Below, piece by piece: positions 2,334 to 12,597 of a stretch of 35,631 nucleotides of DNA (position 1 is its first letter; each line of letters starts with the position of its first letter). The notes under the pieces were generated by a model that worked only from the letters and a program-made list of their open reading frames with translations, was not told the DNA's origin and ran no database searches. The position numbers and the translations under genes are program-made. The stretch covers positions 1 to 35,631 of the forward strand of contig PGYH01000039.1 in the NCBI GenBank assembly GCA_002839575.1. Direction: 5' to 3'. This DNA comes from Methanomicrobiales archaeon HGW-Methanomicrobiales-6 (GTDB taxonomy: Archaea; Halobacteriota; Methanomicrobia; Methanomicrobiales; Methanoculleaceae).

Positions 2334-3245
2334 ATCGGGGATGTCATCGTAGCACGCGACCTCTTGAAGCAATTCGAGGACCTCGTCGCGGTCGACCGTA
2401 TCACCTTCCAGGTCAGGGAAGGAGAGGTCTTCGGGTTTCTCGGCCCGAACGGGGCGGGGAAGACGACGACCATGAAGATGATCCAGTGCATCTCCCCAAA
2501 GACCGGCGGCACCCTGGAGGTCCTTGGCATGGACGTGGAAACCCACCAGCGGGAGATCAAGAGCCGGCTCGGCGTGGTGCCGCAGGAGACCAATCTCGAC
2601 CCGGACTTCTCGGCCTACCGGAACCTGCTGGTCTACTCCCGCTACTTCGGCATCCCGCAGCGGGAAGCGGAGAAGCGGGCGGAAGAACTCCTCGCGTTCA
2701 TGCAGCTCGAGGAGAAGCGGGACGTCCTGATCGACAAACTCTCGGGCGGGATGAAACGGCGGCTGATCATCGCCCGGGCCCTGATCAACGAACCGGAACT
2801 GCTCATCCTCGACGAGCCCACCATCGGGCTCGACCCGCAGGCGCGGCACCTGATCTGGGAGAAACTCCGGAGCCTCCAGGCCGAAGGAAACACCCTCGTC
2901 CTCACCACACACTACCTGGACGAAGCGGAACGCCTCTGCGACCGGCTGGTGATCATGGACCACGGTAAGATCCTCGTCGAGGGTGCCCCGGCAGACCTCA
3001 TCCGGGAGCATGCCGGAAACGACGTCGTCGAGGTCGAGCGGACGGAGAAGGTGGTCACCCGCCTCGACGAACTCGGCGTGAACTACGATCTCGCCGGCGA
3101 CGTGCTCCAGATCTTCACGGACCGTCCAAACGACGTGGCACGCGAACTGCTCGAGGTCTGCCGGCACGAAGCGGCGGTGACGGTCCGCCCGGCAACCCTC
3201 GAGGACGTCTTCCTGCGGCTGACCGGCCGAAGCCTGCGGGAGTGA
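2334..3245 (+). CDS. ABC-2 type transporter ATP-binding protein (NodI/DrrA type), non-standard start
   Basis: This is the ATPase of a two-gene exporter. Visible motifs are Walker A G-P-N-G-A-G-K-T-T-T, the signature L-S-G-G-M-K-R-R-L, Walker B L-L-I-L-D-E-P-T-I-G-L-D and the H-loop L-T-T-H-Y. About 85 residues follow, of the kind seen at the C terminus of DrrA/NodI-type ATPases. The conserved frame opens at about I-G-D-V-I-V-A-R-D-L, but no ATG, GTG or TTG lies in this frame between 2121 and there. The only in-frame ATG, at 2118, would add 72 unlikely residues and overlap the divergent SET start. The Shine-Dalgarno site at 2321 is spaced for the ATC at 2334. Either an ATC start or a base error at the start is possible. 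The permease follows after 6 bases. The exported substrate is unknown. Confidence 0.85.
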   Translation: MGDVIVARDLLKQFEDLVAVDRITFQVREGEVFGFLGPNGAGKTTTMKMIQCISPKTGGTLEVLGMDVETHQREIKSRLGVVPQETNLDPDFSAYRNLLVYSRYFGIPQREAEKRAEELLAFMQLEEKRDVLIDKLSGGMKRRLIIARALINEPELLILDEPTIGLDPQARHLIWEKLRSLQAEGNTLVLTTHYLDEAERLCDRLVIMDHGKILVEGAPADLIREHAGNDVVEVERTEKVVTRLDELGVNYDLAGDVLQIFTDRPNDVARELLEVCRHEAAVTVRPATLEDVFLRLTGRSLRE

Positions 3246-4088: not shown

Positions 4089-4265
4089 TTAGAATCTGGG
4101 TTTTCTGTGCTTCGGGAGGCAGTCGCGGCAGTAGACTGGCCGACCCTCCGTTGGCTTGAAAGGAACTTCGCACTCTTTGCCGCAGTCGGAACAGACCGCC
4201 TTGTGGAACTCGCGGGGACGGTCCTCAAACGAACGGGGGCCCCTGCGGGGGTATCTCTCTTCCAT
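4089..4265 (-). CDS. CxxC-x17-CxxC zinc-ribbon protein
   Basis: The 58-residue protein has an arginine/proline-rich N terminus. A single zinc ribbon follows: C-S-D-C-G-K-E-C-E-V-P-F-K-P, then R-P-V-Y-C-R-D-C. This spacing (CxxC, 17 residues, CxxC) and the V-P-F-K-P-T-x-G-R-P-V-Y-C core match a small family common in methanogens and some bacteria; its role is not established. The ATG at 4265 is preferred because it lies about 45 bases downstream of a good TATA box. An in-frame ATG at 4295 would add ten residues. Nucleic-acid binding is plausible from the basic N terminus but is only an inference. Confidence 0.75.
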   Translation of the reverse strand: MEERYPRRGPRSFEDRPREFHKAVCSDCGKECEVPFKPTEGRPVYCRDCLPKHRKPRF

Positions 4266-4310
4266 ATACTTCAACCATGCAGATAATCTGCACATACACA
4301 ACTACCTGCC

Positions 4311-4320: not shown

Positions 4321-4489
4321 GGTGCGTCTCACGATCCCATGAACGCAGAGCAGCACGGAACTCCTGCTTCCCGCCACACACCATCCAGTGCGGGCCCCCT
4401 CCCCCGGGTGCGTGCCCGGGCTTTCGGGGGAGAGAAATTCCTCTGCAGTGCGGCCATTGACCACCGCAGGGAGAACTGTGGCACAACCC

Positions 4490-4497
4490 TTTTATCG
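4490..4497 (+). promoter_or_regulatory. Putative TATA box for the 4527/4610 gene pair
   Basis: The sequence ttttatcg is centred about 33 bases before the ATG at 4527, the spacing expected for a leaderless archaeal transcript beginning at that codon. Confidence 0.35.
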
Positions 4498-4526
4498 ATA
4501 CTATCCTACCGAATGATCATCCAACT

Positions 4527-4613
4527 ATGGCACATGATACTCGATCTCTTTTGCAGCCCGGCATAACACCGATCCTGTTCCGGAAACACAACCGGGGGAG
4601 TGACCCGGCATGA
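4527..4613 (+). CDS. Possible 28-residue ORF overlapping the start of the fusion gene
   Basis: A short frame beginning MAHDTRSLLQPGITPILF and ending G-S-D-P-A stops in a TGA that overlaps the ATG of the next gene in an ATGA arrangement, the classic sign of translational coupling. Its ATG sits at leaderless distance from a putative TATA box. It could be a leader peptide, a small protein or a peptide substrate of the ATP-grasp enzyme, or simply chance. No family is recognised. The arrangement, not the sequence, is the evidence. Confidence 0.3.
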   Translation: MAHDTRSLLQPGITPILFRKHNRGSDPA

Positions 4614-6601
4614 CCGAGGACAGCCACACAGACGAGCCCCCCGATAGCAGGCGCAAGGGAAAGCGCCGGGACAGGAAGTCTATTGGTCCAGTCCCGAACC
4701 TTGAAGAGCATGTGAAATCCGACTGGTGGAGGGGTATCTTCAACCGGCTTTACTTAAAGACCGATGGGGATGTCGTCGACGATCCGCAGATCACCGAACG
4801 AGAGATTGACCGGATAGCCCGGATCCTGCACCTTCAGCCGGACGAGAAGATCCTCGACCTCTGCTGTGGCCAGGGGAGGCACACCCTCGAACTCGTGCGC
4901 AGGGGCTACAACGCCGAAGGCCTCGACCAGTCGCACTACCTGATCCAGCGGGCCCGGTCGACCGCGAAGAAGGAGGGGCTCTCCGTCCGGTTCCGGGAGG
5001 GGGACGCCCGCCGACTCCCGTACCGCACCGACACCTACGACGTCGTCCTCGTCCTCGGGAACAGCTTCGGCTACTTCGATTCCGTCGAGGAAGACCTGCG
5101 GATCCTCACCGAGCTCCGACGTATCCTCAAACCCTGGGGGCGGGTGCTCCTGGACGTTGCCGACGGCGAGTACTTGAAAGAGCACTTCCTGGCGAGGTCG
5201 TGGGAGTGGATCGACGATACGATGTTCGTCTGCCGCGAACGGTCGCTCTCGCTCGACGAACAGCGCCTGATATCCCGGGAGGTGATCACCGACGTCGAGA
5301 AGGGCGTCGTGGCCGACCAGTTCTATGCCGAACGCCTCTACACCCCCGAAGCGCTCCGGCGGCTCCTTGAGAAGGCGGGGTTTTCCGGGATCGCCTTCCA
5401 TGAGATCGCGACCGAGTCGCAACGGAACCAGGACCTCGGCATGATGGAACGCCGCCACATCGTCACCGCGGTCGTCAGGAAGGAGTGGTCGCCAGTGAAG
5501 GCGAGAGGGCAGGCGAAGACGAAACACGTCGCGGTGATGCTCGGCGACCCGGCCAGGCCCGACGCCCTGAAACCCTCCTGCGCCTTCGACGACGACGACT
5601 TCTACACCATCGACCAGATGAAGGCGGCTCTCCGGGAACTCTCCGGCTACCGGTTCACCTTCCTGTGCAAACACGACACGCTGATCCAGGACCTTCCGAA
5701 ACTGAGGGGAAAGGTCGACTACGTCTTCAACCTCTGCGACGAGGGGTTCAACAACGACCCGAGGAAAGAACTCCACGTGCCGGCGCTTCTCGAGATGTTC
5801 GATATCCCGTACACGGGATCCGGGCCGCAGTCGCTCGCGTTCTGCTACGACAAATCGCTCGTGCGCGGCATCGCGAAAGAGATGGGAATCCCGGTGCCGG
5901 ACGCCTGCTTCATCACCCCGGGCGACCGTACCTACGACGTCGGCATGAAACTCCCGGCGATCGTCAAGCCGAACGCAGGCGACTCCTCCTACGGCATCAC
6001 GCAAAAGAGCATCGCCCACACCATCGAGGAACTCTCCGACGTCATCAGCACGCTCCGGACGACACTCGGGTACGACCGCTCGCTCCTCGTCGAGGAGTTT
6101 CTCACCGGAAAGGACATCAGCGTCGGCATCATCGGCAACCCCCCCGGATACAGCATGGTGCTGCCTGTCATCGAGGAGGATTACTCCGCGCTGCCCCCAG
6201 AACTCCCCCGCATCTGCGGCTACGAAGCGAAGTGGCTCCCTGACTCGCCGTACTGGAAGATCGTATCGAAGCCGGCGGATCTCCCCGAAGAGACCGAGAA
6301 GGTGATCGTGCGGTGCTGCCTCGCCCTCTTCGAGCGCCTGGAATGCCGCGACTACTGCCGGTTCGACTGGCGCCTGGACGAGCACGGCAACCCGAAACTC
6401 CTCGAGGTCAACCCGAACCCCGGGTGGTGCTGGGACGGTCACCTCGCAAAGATGGCGAAGTACGCGGGCCTGTCGTACCCCGAGATGCTCCGGCGGATCC
6501 TCAAAGCCGCGGAGGAGCGGTTCGGCATGGAGCCGGAGAGGGATATGCGGGAGACCGGCAAGGAACCTCTTCCGTTCGACTTCAGCCGGCAGACGGCCTG
6601 A
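4610..6601 (+). CDS. Fusion of a class I SAM methyltransferase and a D-Ala-D-Ala ligase-like ATP-grasp enzyme
   Basis: The 663-residue protein joins two enzymes. Residues about 35-290 are a Rossmann-type methyltransferase with motif I I-L-D-L-C-C-G-Q-G-R at 81-90, followed by G-L-D-Q-S (acidic residue contacting SAM) and D-V-V-L-V-L-G-N-S-F-G-Y. Residues about 303-640 are an ATP-grasp ligase of the D-alanine-D-alanine ligase type: C-D-E-G-F, Y-T-G-S-G-P-Q-S-L, K-P-N-A-G-D-S-S-Y-G-I (ATP lid), L-L-V-E-E-F (ATP grip), and L-L-E-V-N-P-N-P-G (metal ligands). Ligases of this type join a carboxylate to an amine through an acyl phosphate. Methanomicrobiales lack murein, so the substrate is not cell-wall D-Ala. 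The basic N terminus (residues 13-23) is probably disordered. The product is unknown; one enzyme that ligates and methylates the same small molecule or peptide is the simplest inference. Confidence 0.85.
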   Translation: MTEDSHTDEPPDSRRKGKRRDRKSIGPVPNLEEHVKSDWWRGIFNRLYLKTDGDVVDDPQITEREIDRIARILHLQPDEKILDLCCGQGRHTLELVRRGYNAEGLDQSHYLIQRARSTAKKEGLSVRFREGDARRLPYRTDTYDVVLVLGNSFGYFDSVEEDLRILTELRRILKPWGRVLLDVADGEYLKEHFLARSWEWIDDTMFVCRERSLSLDEQRLISREVITDVEKGVVADQFYAERLYTPEALRRLLEKAGFSGIAFHEIATESQRNQDLGMMERRHIVTAVVRKEWSPVKARGQAKTKHVAVMLGDPARPDALKPSCAFDDDDFYTIDQMKAALRELSGYRFTFLCKHDTLIQDLPKLRGKVDYVFNLCDEGFNNDPRKELHVPALLEMFDIPYTGSGPQSLAFCYDKSLVRGIAKEMGIPVPDACFITPGDRTYDVGMKLPAIVKPNAGDSSYGITQKSIAHTIEELSDVISTLRTTLGYDRSLLVEEFLTGKDISVGIIGNPPGYSMVLPVIEEDYSALPPELPRICGYEAKWLPDSPYWKIVSKPADLPEETEKVIVRCCLALFERLECRDYCRFDWRLDEHGNPKLLEVNPNPGWCWDGHLAKMAKYAGLSYPEMLRRILKAAEERFGMEPERDMRETGKEPLPFDFSRQTA

Positions 6602-6617: not shown

Positions 6618-6683
6618 GGCGAGCAGGAACGGCCCGGATCCTCACGAATGCATTTATTCCAAAAGGGCTATTGTCTCCCGCAG

Positions 6684-7892
6684 ATGGCGGTGCCGGAGAG
6701 AGATTCTGCCTTCGCGAGGTACGCCCGGGAGGCGGAGGCGCTCGCAAGAGACGTGGAGGACGAGATCGCACGCGAGGAGCAGCGGCAATCAGTCCTCCTC
6801 GCCTGCGACGGCCGGCTCCACGTCACCGGGCTCTTCATCCTCGCCGCGGTGCTCGTGAACCTTCTCTTCCTGCTCCTCCTCCCCCGGTACATGCTCTACT
6901 GGATCGCATCGAGTTTCATCCTTTACATGGTGAATCCCTTTATCCTGATGATCCCAACCGGGGGTCCGAAAACGGCCTTCCCGGACTGGACGGCGATTGT
7001 GGAGTTTCTCGGGTCGATCCGCGGTGCGGGGTGGATATCCTTTCTTGCGGCCGGAGACGCGAGGGTCTACTGGAAGGTCTTCTGGGACACCTTCTTCATC
7101 AACTGTCAGCCCCTCGCCGCTGGGTTCGGGCTGGTATTCGGCATCAACGTCATTTTCGCACTCTTCGGCGGGTACATGGCCGGGTCGCTCAGGCCCGGGG
7201 CGGCGGCACTGATCGTGCTCCAGTCCCTTGCAATCATCCTCTTCTATGCCGGCATCCTCTACGTCAGGCCCTACACGACGAGTTTCTTCCTCTCGCTCGA
7301 CGGCATGTGGACGACCCTGCAGGAGAAGGTCCGGGCCGGGTGGCGGGCGGCGATGCGGGTCATCCTCCTCGTCGCCGCCCTGGGGGCCGTGAGCGGGGCC
7401 CTCGCCGTATCGGCGATGCTCCTCCCCGGGATGACGTTCTCGACGTTCCTCGCCTCGGCCGATCTCGCCCTCGGATGGGACCTCCTGCCGCTCGCAGCCG
7501 TATTCGTTTCACAGGTCGTCATCGTCAGGTACCTGCAGGGGGCGTACAGCCGGGAACTCTTCATGCAGGTCGGCGACTATAAGATCCATGTCTGGCGGGA
7601 CGGAATCCTGCGCCGGCTCGCCGCATTCCCAAAAACCCCGGAGGTGATCCCGACAGAGGAGCGTCTTGCGGATCTCGTGGCAAACCTGGCGCAGATGCAC
7701 GGCGACTACCGGCGGATGAAGGCATACACTTCGGAGTATCACAGCATCTTCGGTTTCTTTCCGGTCTACCTCGTCCTGCCCGACGTCGGCCTTATCCTTG
7801 ACCGGAACCGTGATGCGCCGCGGAAATCCGTGCAGGAACCCGGCGGCAAGGTGCGCACGGACCCGGCCGACCGGACTTCGGGGTATGCATGA
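6684..7892 (+). CDS. Polytopic membrane protein of unknown function
   Basis: The 402-residue protein has an acidic, coiled-coil-like N terminus rich in Ala, Glu and Arg (residues 5-35). About six or seven hydrophobic segments follow, starting with G-L-F-I-L-A-A-V-L-V-N-L-L-F-L-L-L-L. There is a cytoplasmic-looking C-terminal domain of about 100 residues (R-E-L-F-M-Q-V-G-D-Y-K-I-H-V-W-R) and a polar tail. No family is recognised. The ATG at 6684 is preferred over one at 6648 because a TATA-like gcatttattcc at 6648-6658 overlaps the latter. It is transcribed alone. Confidence 0.7.
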   Translation: MAVPERDSAFARYAREAEALARDVEDEIAREEQRQSVLLACDGRLHVTGLFILAAVLVNLLFLLLLPRYMLYWIASSFILYMVNPFILMIPTGGPKTAFPDWTAIVEFLGSIRGAGWISFLAAGDARVYWKVFWDTFFINCQPLAAGFGLVFGINVIFALFGGYMAGSLRPGAAALIVLQSLAIILFYAGILYVRPYTTSFFLSLDGMWTTLQEKVRAGWRAAMRVILLVAALGAVSGALAVSAMLLPGMTFSTFLASADLALGWDLLPLAAVFVSQVVIVRYLQGAYSRELFMQVGDYKIHVWRDGILRRLAAFPKTPEVIPTEERLADLVANLAQMHGDYRRMKAYTSEYHSIFGFFPVYLVLPDVGLILDRNRDAPRKSVQEPGGKVRTDPADRTSGYA

Positions 7893-7954: not shown

Positions 7955-8866
7955 ATGGCCGATGAGTATCGGACCGCGACGGTCCAGGGCAGGGATGTTC
8001 CTTACGATCCGGAGCAGTTGCGCAAGATCAGCGAGCACCCCTGTTACTCCGAGAAGGCGTGCCACGCTTTTGGGCGGTGCCACGTCCCCGTCGCCCCGAA
8101 GTGCAACATCCAGTGCAACTACTGCATACGGGACTTTGACTGCGTGAACGAGAGCCGGCCGGGCGTGACGAGCAGGGTCCTCTCCCCGGAGGAGGCGCTC
8201 GATCTCGTCAGGAACGTCGTCAAGGAGTACCCCTACGTGAAGGTGGTCGGCATTGCGGGGCCGGGAGAACCGCTCGCAAACCCGGAGACGTTCGAGGCGC
8301 TCAAGCTGATCCACGAGGAGTTCCCGCACCTGATCATGTGCATCAGCACAAATGGCCTCATGCTCCCGGAATCGATTGAGGAACTCGCAAAGTACGACGT
8401 CGGGAACGTTACGGTCACGCTCAACGCCGTCGATCCTGCTGTCGGCGAGAAGATCTACTCCTGGGTCGAGTACGACGGGAAGAAGTACCACGGGCGTGAG
8501 GCGGCAGAACTCCTCCTCTCCCAGCAGATGAAGGGGATCGAGATGGCGGTTGCAAAGAAGATGTTCGTCAAGATCAACACCGTCTACATCCCCGGGATCA
8601 ACGACGAGCACATCCCCGAGATCGCGAAGAAGGTCGGGGAGATGGGAGCGTTCACCTTCAACGTCATCCCGCTCATCCCGCAGTACAAGTTCGCCGGCAT
8701 CACCCCCCCAACACCGAAGGAGAAGCGGGAGATGCAGGATCAGTGCGCCCCGTACATCAAGCAGATGCGCCACTGCGCACGTTGTCGGGCGGACGCGATC
8801 GGGAAACTGGGCCAGGACGTTCAGTCCTGCGTCTACCAGCAGATGAAGGATGAGAAGGCAGAATAA
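7955..8866 (+). CDS. nifB: NifB-type radical SAM protein, single-domain archaeal form
   Basis: NifB builds the 8Fe-9S-C core (NifB-co) of nitrogenase cofactor, using SAM for the carbide. The 303-residue protein has the NifB signature C-H-x-F-G-R-C-H-V-P-V-A-P-K-C and the radical SAM triad C50-x3-C54-x2-C57 (C-N-I-Q-C-N-Y-C). These are followed by the NifB-specific C-V-N-E-S-R-P-G-V-T-S, the SAM-binding region G-I-A-G-P-G-E-P-L and a C-terminal C-A-R-C-R-A-D. The NifX-like domain of many bacterial NifB proteins is missing, as in methanogens. No other nif gene is in the window. Many methanogens carry nifB without the full nif cluster, so a role outside nitrogen fixation is possible. The molybdate uptake genes nearby are compatible with either. 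Confidence 0.9.
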   Translation: MADEYRTATVQGRDVPYDPEQLRKISEHPCYSEKACHAFGRCHVPVAPKCNIQCNYCIRDFDCVNESRPGVTSRVLSPEEALDLVRNVVKEYPYVKVVGIAGPGEPLANPETFEALKLIHEEFPHLIMCISTNGLMLPESIEELAKYDVGNVTVTLNAVDPAVGEKIYSWVEYDGKKYHGREAAELLLSQQMKGIEMAVAKKMFVKINTVYIPGINDEHIPEIAKKVGEMGAFTFNVIPLIPQYKFAGITPPTPKEKREMQDQCAPYIKQMRHCARCRADAIGKLGQDVQSCVYQQMKDEKAE

Positions 8867-10998: not shown

Positions 10999-11843
10999 CA
11001 GAGTCTCCTCCGGGTCATGATCTTCACCGAAGCGATCACCCCAAACGATATCGCGACCAGGATGATCGCGAGGCTGATCGCGGCATCGAGGTCGCCCTGC
11101 ATCGTCGTATAGATGGCAAGCGGCATCGTCTGCGTCCGGCCCTGGAAGTTCCCGGCAAACATGATCGTGGCACCGAACTCCCCGAGCGCCCGGGCAAACG
11201 AGAGTATCGCACCGGAGACGAGCCCGCCCCATGCAAGCGGGATGGTGACCCGGAGGGCGACGGTCGCCGGGGATGCCCCGAGCGTCCGCGCCGCATCCTC
11301 GTAGAGGCGGTCGACCGCCTCGAAACTCGCTCTCGCCTGCCGGATGTAGAACGGCGAGGCCACAAAGACCTGTGCGAGGATCACCGCAACTGTGGTGAAA
11401 GCGATGGAGATGCCGAAGTGGTCGAGGTACTGCCCGACCACGCCCCGGCGGCCGAAGGCCATCAGCAGCGCGATGCCCGCCACCGCCGGCGGCAGGACGA
11501 TGGGAAGGTCGGTGAGCGTATCGACGATCGCTCTCCCGCGGTAGTCGTGCCGGGCATTCACCAGGGCAAGAGGCGTTCCGAAGATGACCACGATCGCCGT
11601 GCTCACCGCCGCGGTGACGAGTGAGAGGGAGAGCGCGTCGAGCACCACCGGTTCGGCGAGCGACCGGAGGAACGCCTCAGGCGATATGCGCAGGAAGAGC
11701 GAGGCGACCGGCAGCGTGACGAAGAGGAGGAAGAGGGCGACGAGGGCGGCAACGAGGGGGGTGAGACCCGCCCTCGAGACTCGCGCCAGGCCGCCTTCGC
11801 GCCGGGTCACCTCAGGACTCTGCCGGAATGGGGTCGAATCCAT
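10998..11843 (-). CDS. modB: Molybdate ABC transporter permease
   Basis: The 281-residue permease has about six membrane segments (first at about 25-50) and the binding-protein-dependent transport motif E-D-A-A-R-T-L-G-A-S-P, which docks the ATPase, within a ModB/CysT-like sequence (A-R-A-L-G-E-F-G-A-T-I-M-F-A-G-N). It overlaps modC by TGATG and modA by 32 bases if the ATG at 11843 is used. A GTG at 11810, just after the modA stop, would give a 270-residue protein; both put the first membrane segment at a normal distance. Molybdate and tungstate cannot be told apart by sequence. Confidence 0.85.
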   Translation of the reverse strand: MDSTPFRQSPEVTRREGGLARVSRAGLTPLVAALVALFLLFVTLPVASLFLRISPEAFLRSLAEPVVLDALSLSLVTAAVSTAIVVIFGTPLALVNARHDYRGRAIVDTLTDLPIVLPPAVAGIALLMAFGRRGVVGQYLDHFGISIAFTTVAVILAQVFVASPFYIRQARASFEAVDRLYEDAARTLGASPATVALRVTIPLAWGGLVSGAILSFARALGEFGATIMFAGNFQGRTQTMPLAIYTTMQGDLDAAISLAIILVAISFGVIASVKIMTRRRL

Positions 11844-12597
11844 ACTCCGTCAGGATGGCGCTGCCGTCCGGGCCCCGGACGAACGCTATGAAGGACTCCG
11901 CTTCGGTCTTGTGTAGCGACTCCGCAAGGATGCCGAGCGGATACGTGGCCATGACATTATACTCCGCCGGAACCTCGATCCGGGACACCTTCTCGAGGTC
12001 GTCCTTCGAGACGTCCGATTTGTAGACGAACGCCGCGTCCGCCTCCCCGAGCGTCAATTTGGGCACCACGGAACTCACCGCAGTCTCCTCGGAGATGACG
12101 TTGTTCATCACGGCCTCCCGGTATGCCTCGCCGTATGCGGGATCGGCAGCCATCTTATCGAGCACCTGCCGGGTGTAGTCGCCGAAGGGGACGTCTTTGG
12201 TGCCGATGACAATCTTCGTGCCCGGGTTTGCCAGGTCGGGAAGACCCGTGATCCCGGCCGGATTGTCGACCGGGACGATCAGGGCCATGCTGTTCCCGAG
12301 GAAGACCGCCACGGTATCGTCATCCATGAGCCCGCCGTCCTGGAGGGCCTTCATGTGCTTTTCGCTCGCGGAGACGAAGATATCGGGGTTCGCTCCCTGC
12401 TCGATCTGGGTGCGGAGGGCCTGCGATCCGTCGAAGACCAGGTCGATCGTAAAGGCTCCCGTGAGCGACGCGGCCGTAAAGACGGTCAGAGTTGTCTCTC
12501 CCGGAGTTTCTTCTGTGGTCGTGCATCCCGCAACCAGGAGGCCGGCGATGATCACGAGGGTCAGGGCAACAAGGGTTGCCGTGGTAGGTACTTTCAT
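11812..12597 (-). CDS. modA: Molybdate-binding lipoprotein
   Basis: The 261-residue substrate-binding protein has a lipoprotein signal ending in L-V-A-G-C-T, so it should be lipid-anchored outside the membrane. It carries the ModA features F-T-A-A-S-L-T, S-Q-A-L-R-T-Q-I-E-Q-G-A, D-I-F-V-S-A-S, G-N-S-M-A-L-I-V-P and Y-P-L-G-I-L. It resembles bacterial-type ModA rather than archaeal WtpA. Between S-L-T and S-Q-A-L there are only about 11 residues where ModA proteins usually have about 24, so the first helix after the oxyanion loop appears deleted in frame. It is the first gene of the modABC operon, with a TATA box about 43 bases upstream. Confidence 0.85.
   Translation of the reverse strand: MKVPTTATLVALTLVIIAGLLVAGCTTTEETPGETTLTVFTAASLTGAFTIDLVFDGSQALRTQIEQGANPDIFVSASEKHMKALQDGGLMDDDTVAVFLGNSMALIVPVDNPAGITGLPDLANPGTKIVIGTKDVPFGDYTRQVLDKMAADPAYGEAYREAVMNNVISEETAVSSVVPKLTLGEADAAFVYKSDVSKDDLEKVSRIEVPAEYNVMATYPLGILAESLHKTEAESFIAFVRGPDGSAILTEYGFDPIPAES

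Follow-up and report, generated by a model that had tools for sequence, protein, structure and literature searches.

What does a ligase of the D-alanine-D-alanine (Ddl) type do in an archaeon without murein, fused to a methyltransferase and preceded by a frame of 28 codons? The locus lies in a contig of Methanomicrobiales archaeon HGW-Methanomicrobiales-6 (PGYH01000039.1), of which a stretch of 35,631 nucleotides was analysed (the window). The best explanation, to which we give an even chance, is a bifunctional small-molecule enzyme for ligation and methylation, together with an AUG-led coupling ORF. The two-part enzyme probably links two small molecules to each other and also transfers a methyl group. 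The features of the locus are:

4490-4495, +: TATA-like box TTTTAT (sequence, by eye) in a conserved promoter block (about 4479-4526); positions -36 to -34 are T in 28/28 genus-level upstreams
4527-4529, +: near 5'-terminal ATG, found in all genus-level upstreams (28/28)
4527-4613, +: 28-codon upstream ORF with unconserved peptide, probably a sequence-independent coupling ORF
4597-4603, +: Shine-Dalgarno-like GGAGTGA (by eye), 6 bases 5' of the fusion start; relatives show a purine-rich block
4685-5491, +: class I SAM methyltransferase half (residues 26-294) with motif DLCCGQGRH at 83-91 (Pfam, alignment, structure model)
5516-6535, +: Ddl-like ATP-grasp half (residues 303-642; Pfam, structure match, alignment to solved ligases)
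6221-6235, +: YEAKW (residues 538-542), aligned with the Ddl loop YEAKY (5d8d); Y, E, K and W in 61/61 rows, A in 57/61
6410-6442, +: NPNPGWCWDGH (residues 601-611), aligned with NTxPGMTSHS; Mg/oxyanion positions kept, second-substrate position altered

The frame at 4610-6601 (+) encodes 663 aa and is a methyltransferase/ATP-grasp fusion, as an earlier note on this DNA had read it. Pfam places Methyltransf_25 at residues 81-177 (1.3e-19) and Dala_Dala_lig_C at residues 423-631 (8.7e-26; 91.1 bits, cut-off 24). AlphaFold models the whole fusion as two domains (pLDDT 81.4) whose mutual placement is uncertain, given a pTM of 0.62. Five weak PHROGs matches all fall in the methyltransferase half, and the single PADLOC match (mads_2, 9.1e-20) covers only residues 43-188 and is taken as general methyltransferase similarity.

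The family is widespread. A scan that took one genome from each of 84,980 species confirmed at least 583 relatives of the fusion, and 80 loci were kept. All of these except one, L068, which begins at a contig end, cover at least 613 of the 663 residues and both halves at 62-93% identity, the nearest named record being a Methanoculleus (93% across the whole protein), which suggests the genus. Members are scattered across many bacterial and archaeal phyla, and those of methanogens, Atribacterota, Planctomycetota and others are 57-70% identical. By title, they include Planctomycetes, Atribacteria, Deltaproteobacteria, Thermotogota, Altiarchaeota, Methanophagales and Jordarchaeia, and single placements may be wrong since most are metagenome bins. 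The same note had considered a Ddl-like domain out of place in an archaeon lacking murein, but the fusion family occurs in several archaeal groups. The Pfam ligase domain is also above cut-off in 14/14 control genomes (4 archaea), a weak control because the model matches other ATP-grasp enzymes as well; in the window's own genome it matches two places within one 1064-residue frame.

At E <= 1e-100, the fusion is found in 52/150 genomes of the order and in 28/29 of the genus (a hand count that includes broken and contig-cut copies). The corresponding figure for the phylum of an Atribacteria genome is 31/50, and for the phyla of a Desulfococcaceae, a Planctomycetes and an Aminicenantes genome it is 7/247, 4/199 and 6/199, respectively. 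In the wider phylum of the window, the ligase half is matched at E <= 1e-15 in 47/246 genomes; 15 of these 47 belong to one archaeal family, f8 (genomes of 2.1-4.1 Mb), with 63-65% identity and open frames of 648-797 residues, and the four f8 loci read (L222, L223, L224, L227) have both halves within one frame. The gene seems dispensable, as it is absent from the genus genome G028 (99% completeness) and broken in G004. Genome G049 (L175, L176) contains two full copies, which have neighbours in common, and an interrupted one.

The protein alignment consists of 61 rows, namely 60 of the 80 kept loci and the window sequence (L005, L006, L008, L009, L012, L014, L018, L019, L021, L025, L029, L035, L039, L044, L049, L064, L065, L067, L068 and L069 were left out). 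In the tree of these rows, which carry 18 phylum labels, the 12 Methanomicrobiales rows, including the window, stand together, while phyla are mixed elsewhere with many open forks. Horizontal transfer fits the patchy spread but is unproven, since the starred branches force only one or two changes per listed phylum. Among plasmids, 684 records match the fusion and none covers 80% of the query (nine of the ten listed are annotated ATP-grasp); two rhizobial loci showed no visible shared context. Among the papers listed by searches of the open literature with narrow terms, none described such a methyltransferase and ATP-grasp fusion.

The short ORF at 4527-4613 (+) reads MAHDTRSLLQPGITPILFRKHNRGSDPA (28 aa), and its TGA overlaps the fusion ATG at 4610 as ATGA. 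Its start lies about 34 bases from the centre of the TATA-like box (by eye); both the overlap and the near-leaderless distance had been pointed out before and hold. The two genes downstream have apparent ATGs about 30 bases after TATA-like sequences (at about 6684 and 7955; by eye), and near-leaderless starts thus look ordinary here. Transcription of the fusion from 4610 only, which the note had named as a refuting result, is disfavoured: by eye there is no TATA-like sequence 25-35 bases 5' of 4610, and the block before 4527 is conserved. Rfam gave no match up to E 1 between 4100 and 4800. A small Cys-rich ORF (CxxC...CxxC, by eye) at 4105-4270 (-) is divergent from the fusion.

We compared 28 distinct genus-level upstream sequences, kept from 45 regions (33 distinct). 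Those of L004, L014 and L015 were included on title or likeness, and that of L110 comes from a genome with a broken enzyme gene. Five upstreams of more distant relatives (L107, L108, L109, L111, L112) were kept apart and are described separately; L109 is the same as L016, a record titled Methanoculleus but classified in another genus. With the regions anchored on the ATG homologous to 4527, its A, T and G are each found in 28/28 at a constant spacing from the TATA-like box. Relative to the enzyme start, this ATG is located at -83 (16), -84 (9), -86 (2) or -85 (1).

The peptides that follow it differ in sequence and, owing to indels, occur in three phases relative to the enzyme. Their frames end at +4 in 16 cases, at -15 in six, at -6 in two and at -9, -5, -2 and +8 in one each; all stops are thus within -15 to +8 of the enzyme start (28/28), with 12/28 not ending at ATGA. 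In two sets of leaders, with one phase each, pN/pS is 1.43 (9 rows) and 0.91 (7 rows), compared with 0.14 and 0.12 for enzyme codons 26-200, and the peptide therefore shows no selection. Clades A (seven of the nine leaders with the ATG at -84) and B (9 rows) were picked after the sequences were seen. Pairwise leader values, from small samples, are 0.39 for the window and L084 (ATG frame, 17 differences), 0.73 for L096/L104 (23 differences) and 1.41 for L103/L015 (16 differences). CDS values for A with L102, L103/L015 and L096/L104 are invalid, as CDS indels were compared without gaps, and were not used. The 28 leaders have no consensus RNA structure (0.0 kcal/mol; 200/200 column shuffles were as low or lower). 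Among the more distant relatives in the order, the ATG is present in L109 and L108, where the ORFs run to +8 and +38; the short ORF of L111 has only 13 residues, and L107 and L112 lack an ATG in the interval from -95 to -71.

The proposal that the short ORF is a leader or a substrate, with in-frame conservation in relatives as its check, falls for the peptide: neither its sequence nor its phase nor its end point is conserved among the 28 genus-level relatives. A leader-peptide attenuator that depends on sequence would have a conserved peptide, which is not what the pN/pS values indicate, while a coupling ORF independent of sequence would have a fixed start and a stop near the next start, and both are seen in 28/28. 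The conserved promoter and AUG thus suggest a near-leaderless upstream ORF of the latter type.

The strongest competing explanation, to which we assign somewhat less than an even chance, is that the ATG at 4527 is part of a conserved promoter or start-site element, the leader being an untranslated 5' region of the usual kind and the enzyme starting via the Shine-Dalgarno-like GGAGTGA that precedes it. The 45 bases before the ATG indeed form a conserved block, with 0.05 and 0.09 differences per site in the two clades, against 0.12 and 0.23 in the leader. Invariance also extends to nine of the 48 columns that precede the ATG, including TTT at -36 to -34, so part of the conserved ATG signal belongs to the promoter. 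Against a pure promoter element, the ATG is invariant though its immediate flanking bases vary (positions -3 to -1 conserved in 22, 22 and 24 of 28, positions +3 to +11 in 12-20 of 28), and a stop before -20 occurs in 0/28 ATG frames versus 15/28 and 13/28 in the other two frames. By chance, about 54% of leaders with this composition would be open in the ATG frame; openness of the one ORF therefore means little, and openness across relatives, whose sequences are related, is moderate evidence. Under the coupling explanation, the promoter position predicts a transcript start no more than a few bases from the AUG at 4527. Ribosomes would load at this AUG, read a short ORF of arbitrary sequence and stop on or near the enzyme start, where they would help initiation alongside the Shine-Dalgarno-like sequence.

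Turning to the enzyme, the SAM-motif residues D83, C86, G87 and G89 of the methyltransferase half are invariant in the 61 aligned rows, and this half is modelled with a pLDDT of 89.1 and a pTM of 0.88. Its fold matches are small-molecule and peptide methyltransferases, both N- and C-directed (Z 20.5-24.6 among the best 50 listed), and from sequence and model it appears to be of the type that acts on small molecules and peptide N-termini. By sequence, the nearest solved methyltransferase is NmbA (9ri2), with 2e-24 over residues 47-259, Cap region included; the next match is at 1.3e-14. NmbA methylates the cysteine nitrogen of bacillithiol (PMC12719100). It differs in being unfused, whereas the methyltransferase half here is joined to a ligase.

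The product could accordingly be a low-molecular-weight thiol, in which the ligase attaches cysteine and the NmbA-like half N-methylates it. We consider this improbable: the sequence likeness to an enzyme acting on a cysteinyl amine speaks for it, but the fold search does not single out NmbA, which ranks only eighth, mixed with C-methyltransferases, while others rank as high, and the NmbA paper reports that no complete bacillithiol pathway was found in archaea (PMC12719100).

Another clue to the product comes from unfused relatives of the ligase half. The nearest of these are found in eight genomes (loci L214-L221) with 36-40% identity. A gene of the lysine-2,3-aminomutase family (KamA/LAM) is present in 8/8 of these loci (found by tblastn, with Pfam or NCBIfam confirmation on four) and is fused to the ligase in L217; the two aminomutases tested score above the KamA family cut-off and below that of AblA. 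A GNAT domain occurs in 7/8 (tblastn; Pfam on part), in several cases fused to a second ligase, and 7/8 genomes have two ligase matches on the same strand. These loci resemble the fusion in that an amine-modifying domain adjoins or is fused to a Ddl-like ATP-grasp ligase, but they differ in that the ligase is unfused or fused to GNAT or aminomutase, never to a methyltransferase, and in that the aminomutase gene is always present. From sequence, ligation with an amine-capping domain recurs as a combination. Related ligases are thus used with amine-capping enzymes, and the methyltransferase fusion looks like the methyl version. NAGGN synthesis uses a GNAT-ATP-grasp fusion, which likewise ligates and caps an amine in one polypeptide, with acetyl there and methyl here; our literature search found no paper combining NAGGN synthesis and such a fusion.

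Among the fragments read from the ligase-half search, none was a clean unfused copy with more than 57% identity. In G1011 the two halves are present in two frames, and the same is true of G851, where a gap lies between them. G939 has one piece reaching the contig end and another C-terminal piece without the rest nearby, and the copy of G661 is cut by the contig end. L221 (6978-11893, -) has remnants of the fusion at either end, a methyltransferase piece at 11498-11893 and a ligase piece at 6978-7226. Between them, and on the strand that they share, are a ligase, an ORF that by eye is GNAT-like and an aminomutase gene, as if a cassette had replaced the fusion; this is a metagenome bin and an assembly artefact is possible. 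L115 (694-2844, -) encodes a different archaeal fusion of 716 aa, a Ddl-like ATP-grasp followed by an M20/M28-type peptidase (by eye), near a serpin-like lipoprotein and a sortase-like membrane protein (by eye).

Outside Methanomicrobiales, no constant neighbour gene accompanies the fusion. Recurrent neighbours, suggestive only, are CorA on the same strand (14/121 loci, several being the same genome counted twice), MgtE (2 of 121) and an AstE/AspA-like gene (5 of 121, with one repeat of the same genome and one weak match). The two AstE-like neighbours tested are far below DoeB in score, with 53.4 and 51.1 against 402.7. In the window, the fusion is followed by a membrane-protein-like ORF of 414 aa at 6648-7892 (its start may be at about 6684), without a Pfam or NCBIfam match at E 0.001, which clusters with ORFs of only three other Methanoculleus-type loci. 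Next comes a short NifB-like radical SAM protein at 7955-8866 (TIGR01290, 378.7 bits, cut-off 343.65), a homologue of which follows the fusion in ten loci (clustering).

The aminomutase neighbours hint at a compatible solute or conjugate with a beta-amino acid as its building block, again an unlikely product in our estimation. Besides the 8/8 unfused loci and the recurrent CorA or MgtE transporters, three loci of one other genus (L179, L180, L182) have a KamA-like gene (31-33%) about 2.9 kb from the fusion on the opposite strand. In L041 (157-6361), a second, unfused Ddl-like ligase adjoins the fusion on the other strand (match 2350-3132), with a GNAT-like match about 4 kb on (5858-6361). However, LAM_C is present in only 15/35 genus genomes, compared with the fusion or its pieces in 28/29, nine genomes at 99% completeness have the fusion without a LAM_C match, and the known Methanoculleus solutes differ. 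The fusion is thus independent of the aminomutase, and beta-lysine as a required substrate is ruled out for the genus.

The ligase half retains a complete catalytic centre. Aligned with the solved ligases 5d8d and 1e4e, K415, K453, K541, R584, D586, N601 and G605 are invariant (61/61) and E599 is present in 60/61 rows; their catalytic roles are those we presume from known ATP-grasp enzymes. In NPNPGWCWDGH, W606 is found in 60/61 rows and every other position is invariant, and near the start of the half G312, D313, K321, P322, F326, D329, D330 and T333 are in 61/61 rows. The structure search returned Ddl and VanA (Z 25.6-28.9 among the best 50 matches listed), which the modelled residues 303-642 resemble in fold and catalytic positions. 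The fusion differs from these enzymes by the attached methyltransferase, by the altered second-substrate motif and by scores far below the family cut-offs. The position of the SHS serine of Ddl, which we take to hold the carboxylate of the second D-Ala, is G610/H611 in 61/61 rows, so that the YEAKY/YEAKW and NTxPGMTSHS/NPNPGWCWDGH alignments keep the catalytic centre and differ at this serine. The scores are 131.4 bits against 243 (PRK01372) and 121.7 against 245.65 (TIGR01205), and no NCBIfam model reached its cut-off among the best 25 of 72 matches. Despite the Ddl fold and catalytic positions, a true D-alanine-D-alanine (or D-Ala-X) ligase for cell-wall peptide is thus very unlikely, and we rejected the idea of a misplaced one.

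Least probable of all is a RiPP-like leader or substrate modified by the fusion, a reading largely refuted from sequence: the ATGA overlap would suit it, and RiPP systems include ATP-grasp ligases and N-terminal methyltransferases (the cypemycin and crocagin methyltransferases are among the fold matches), but the 28-codon ORF shows no conserved precursor peptide for a ligase (graspetides included) in the 28 genus-level relatives, where phase and sequence vary under the pN/pS values given above, and L107, L112 and L111 lack the ATG or all but 13 residues.

We therefore return to the bifunctional enzyme. Its ATP-grasp half would activate a carboxylate, probably that of an amino acid, as an acyl phosphate and then join it to an amine, yielding an amide. 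The N-terminal half would methylate before or after ligation, most likely on nitrogen, although C- and O-methylators belong to the same fold class. As a single gene that lacks a fixed partner, the fusion has the look of a self-contained pathway drawing on common metabolites; by the same token, no constant partner gene backs a pathway. As to this pathway, we favour a scarce metabolite. More tentatively, and with doubt outweighing belief, the fusion may be a one-gene pathway, undescribed in the papers searched and present in many phyla, that makes a new class of N-methylated amino-acyl conjugate and that in Methanoculleus is under the control of a leaderless upstream ORF, with selection on the start of this ORF and a peptide free to drift, even across frames.

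The identity of 57-70% across phyla, together with no NCBIfam model at its cut-off (best 25 of 72), suggests a shared, so far unnamed small molecule. The open copies of f8 may permit removal of the gene in a laboratory strain. The short ORF, in turn, lends itself as a natural test case for translational coupling by archaeal leaderless AUGs in the absence of selection on the peptide.
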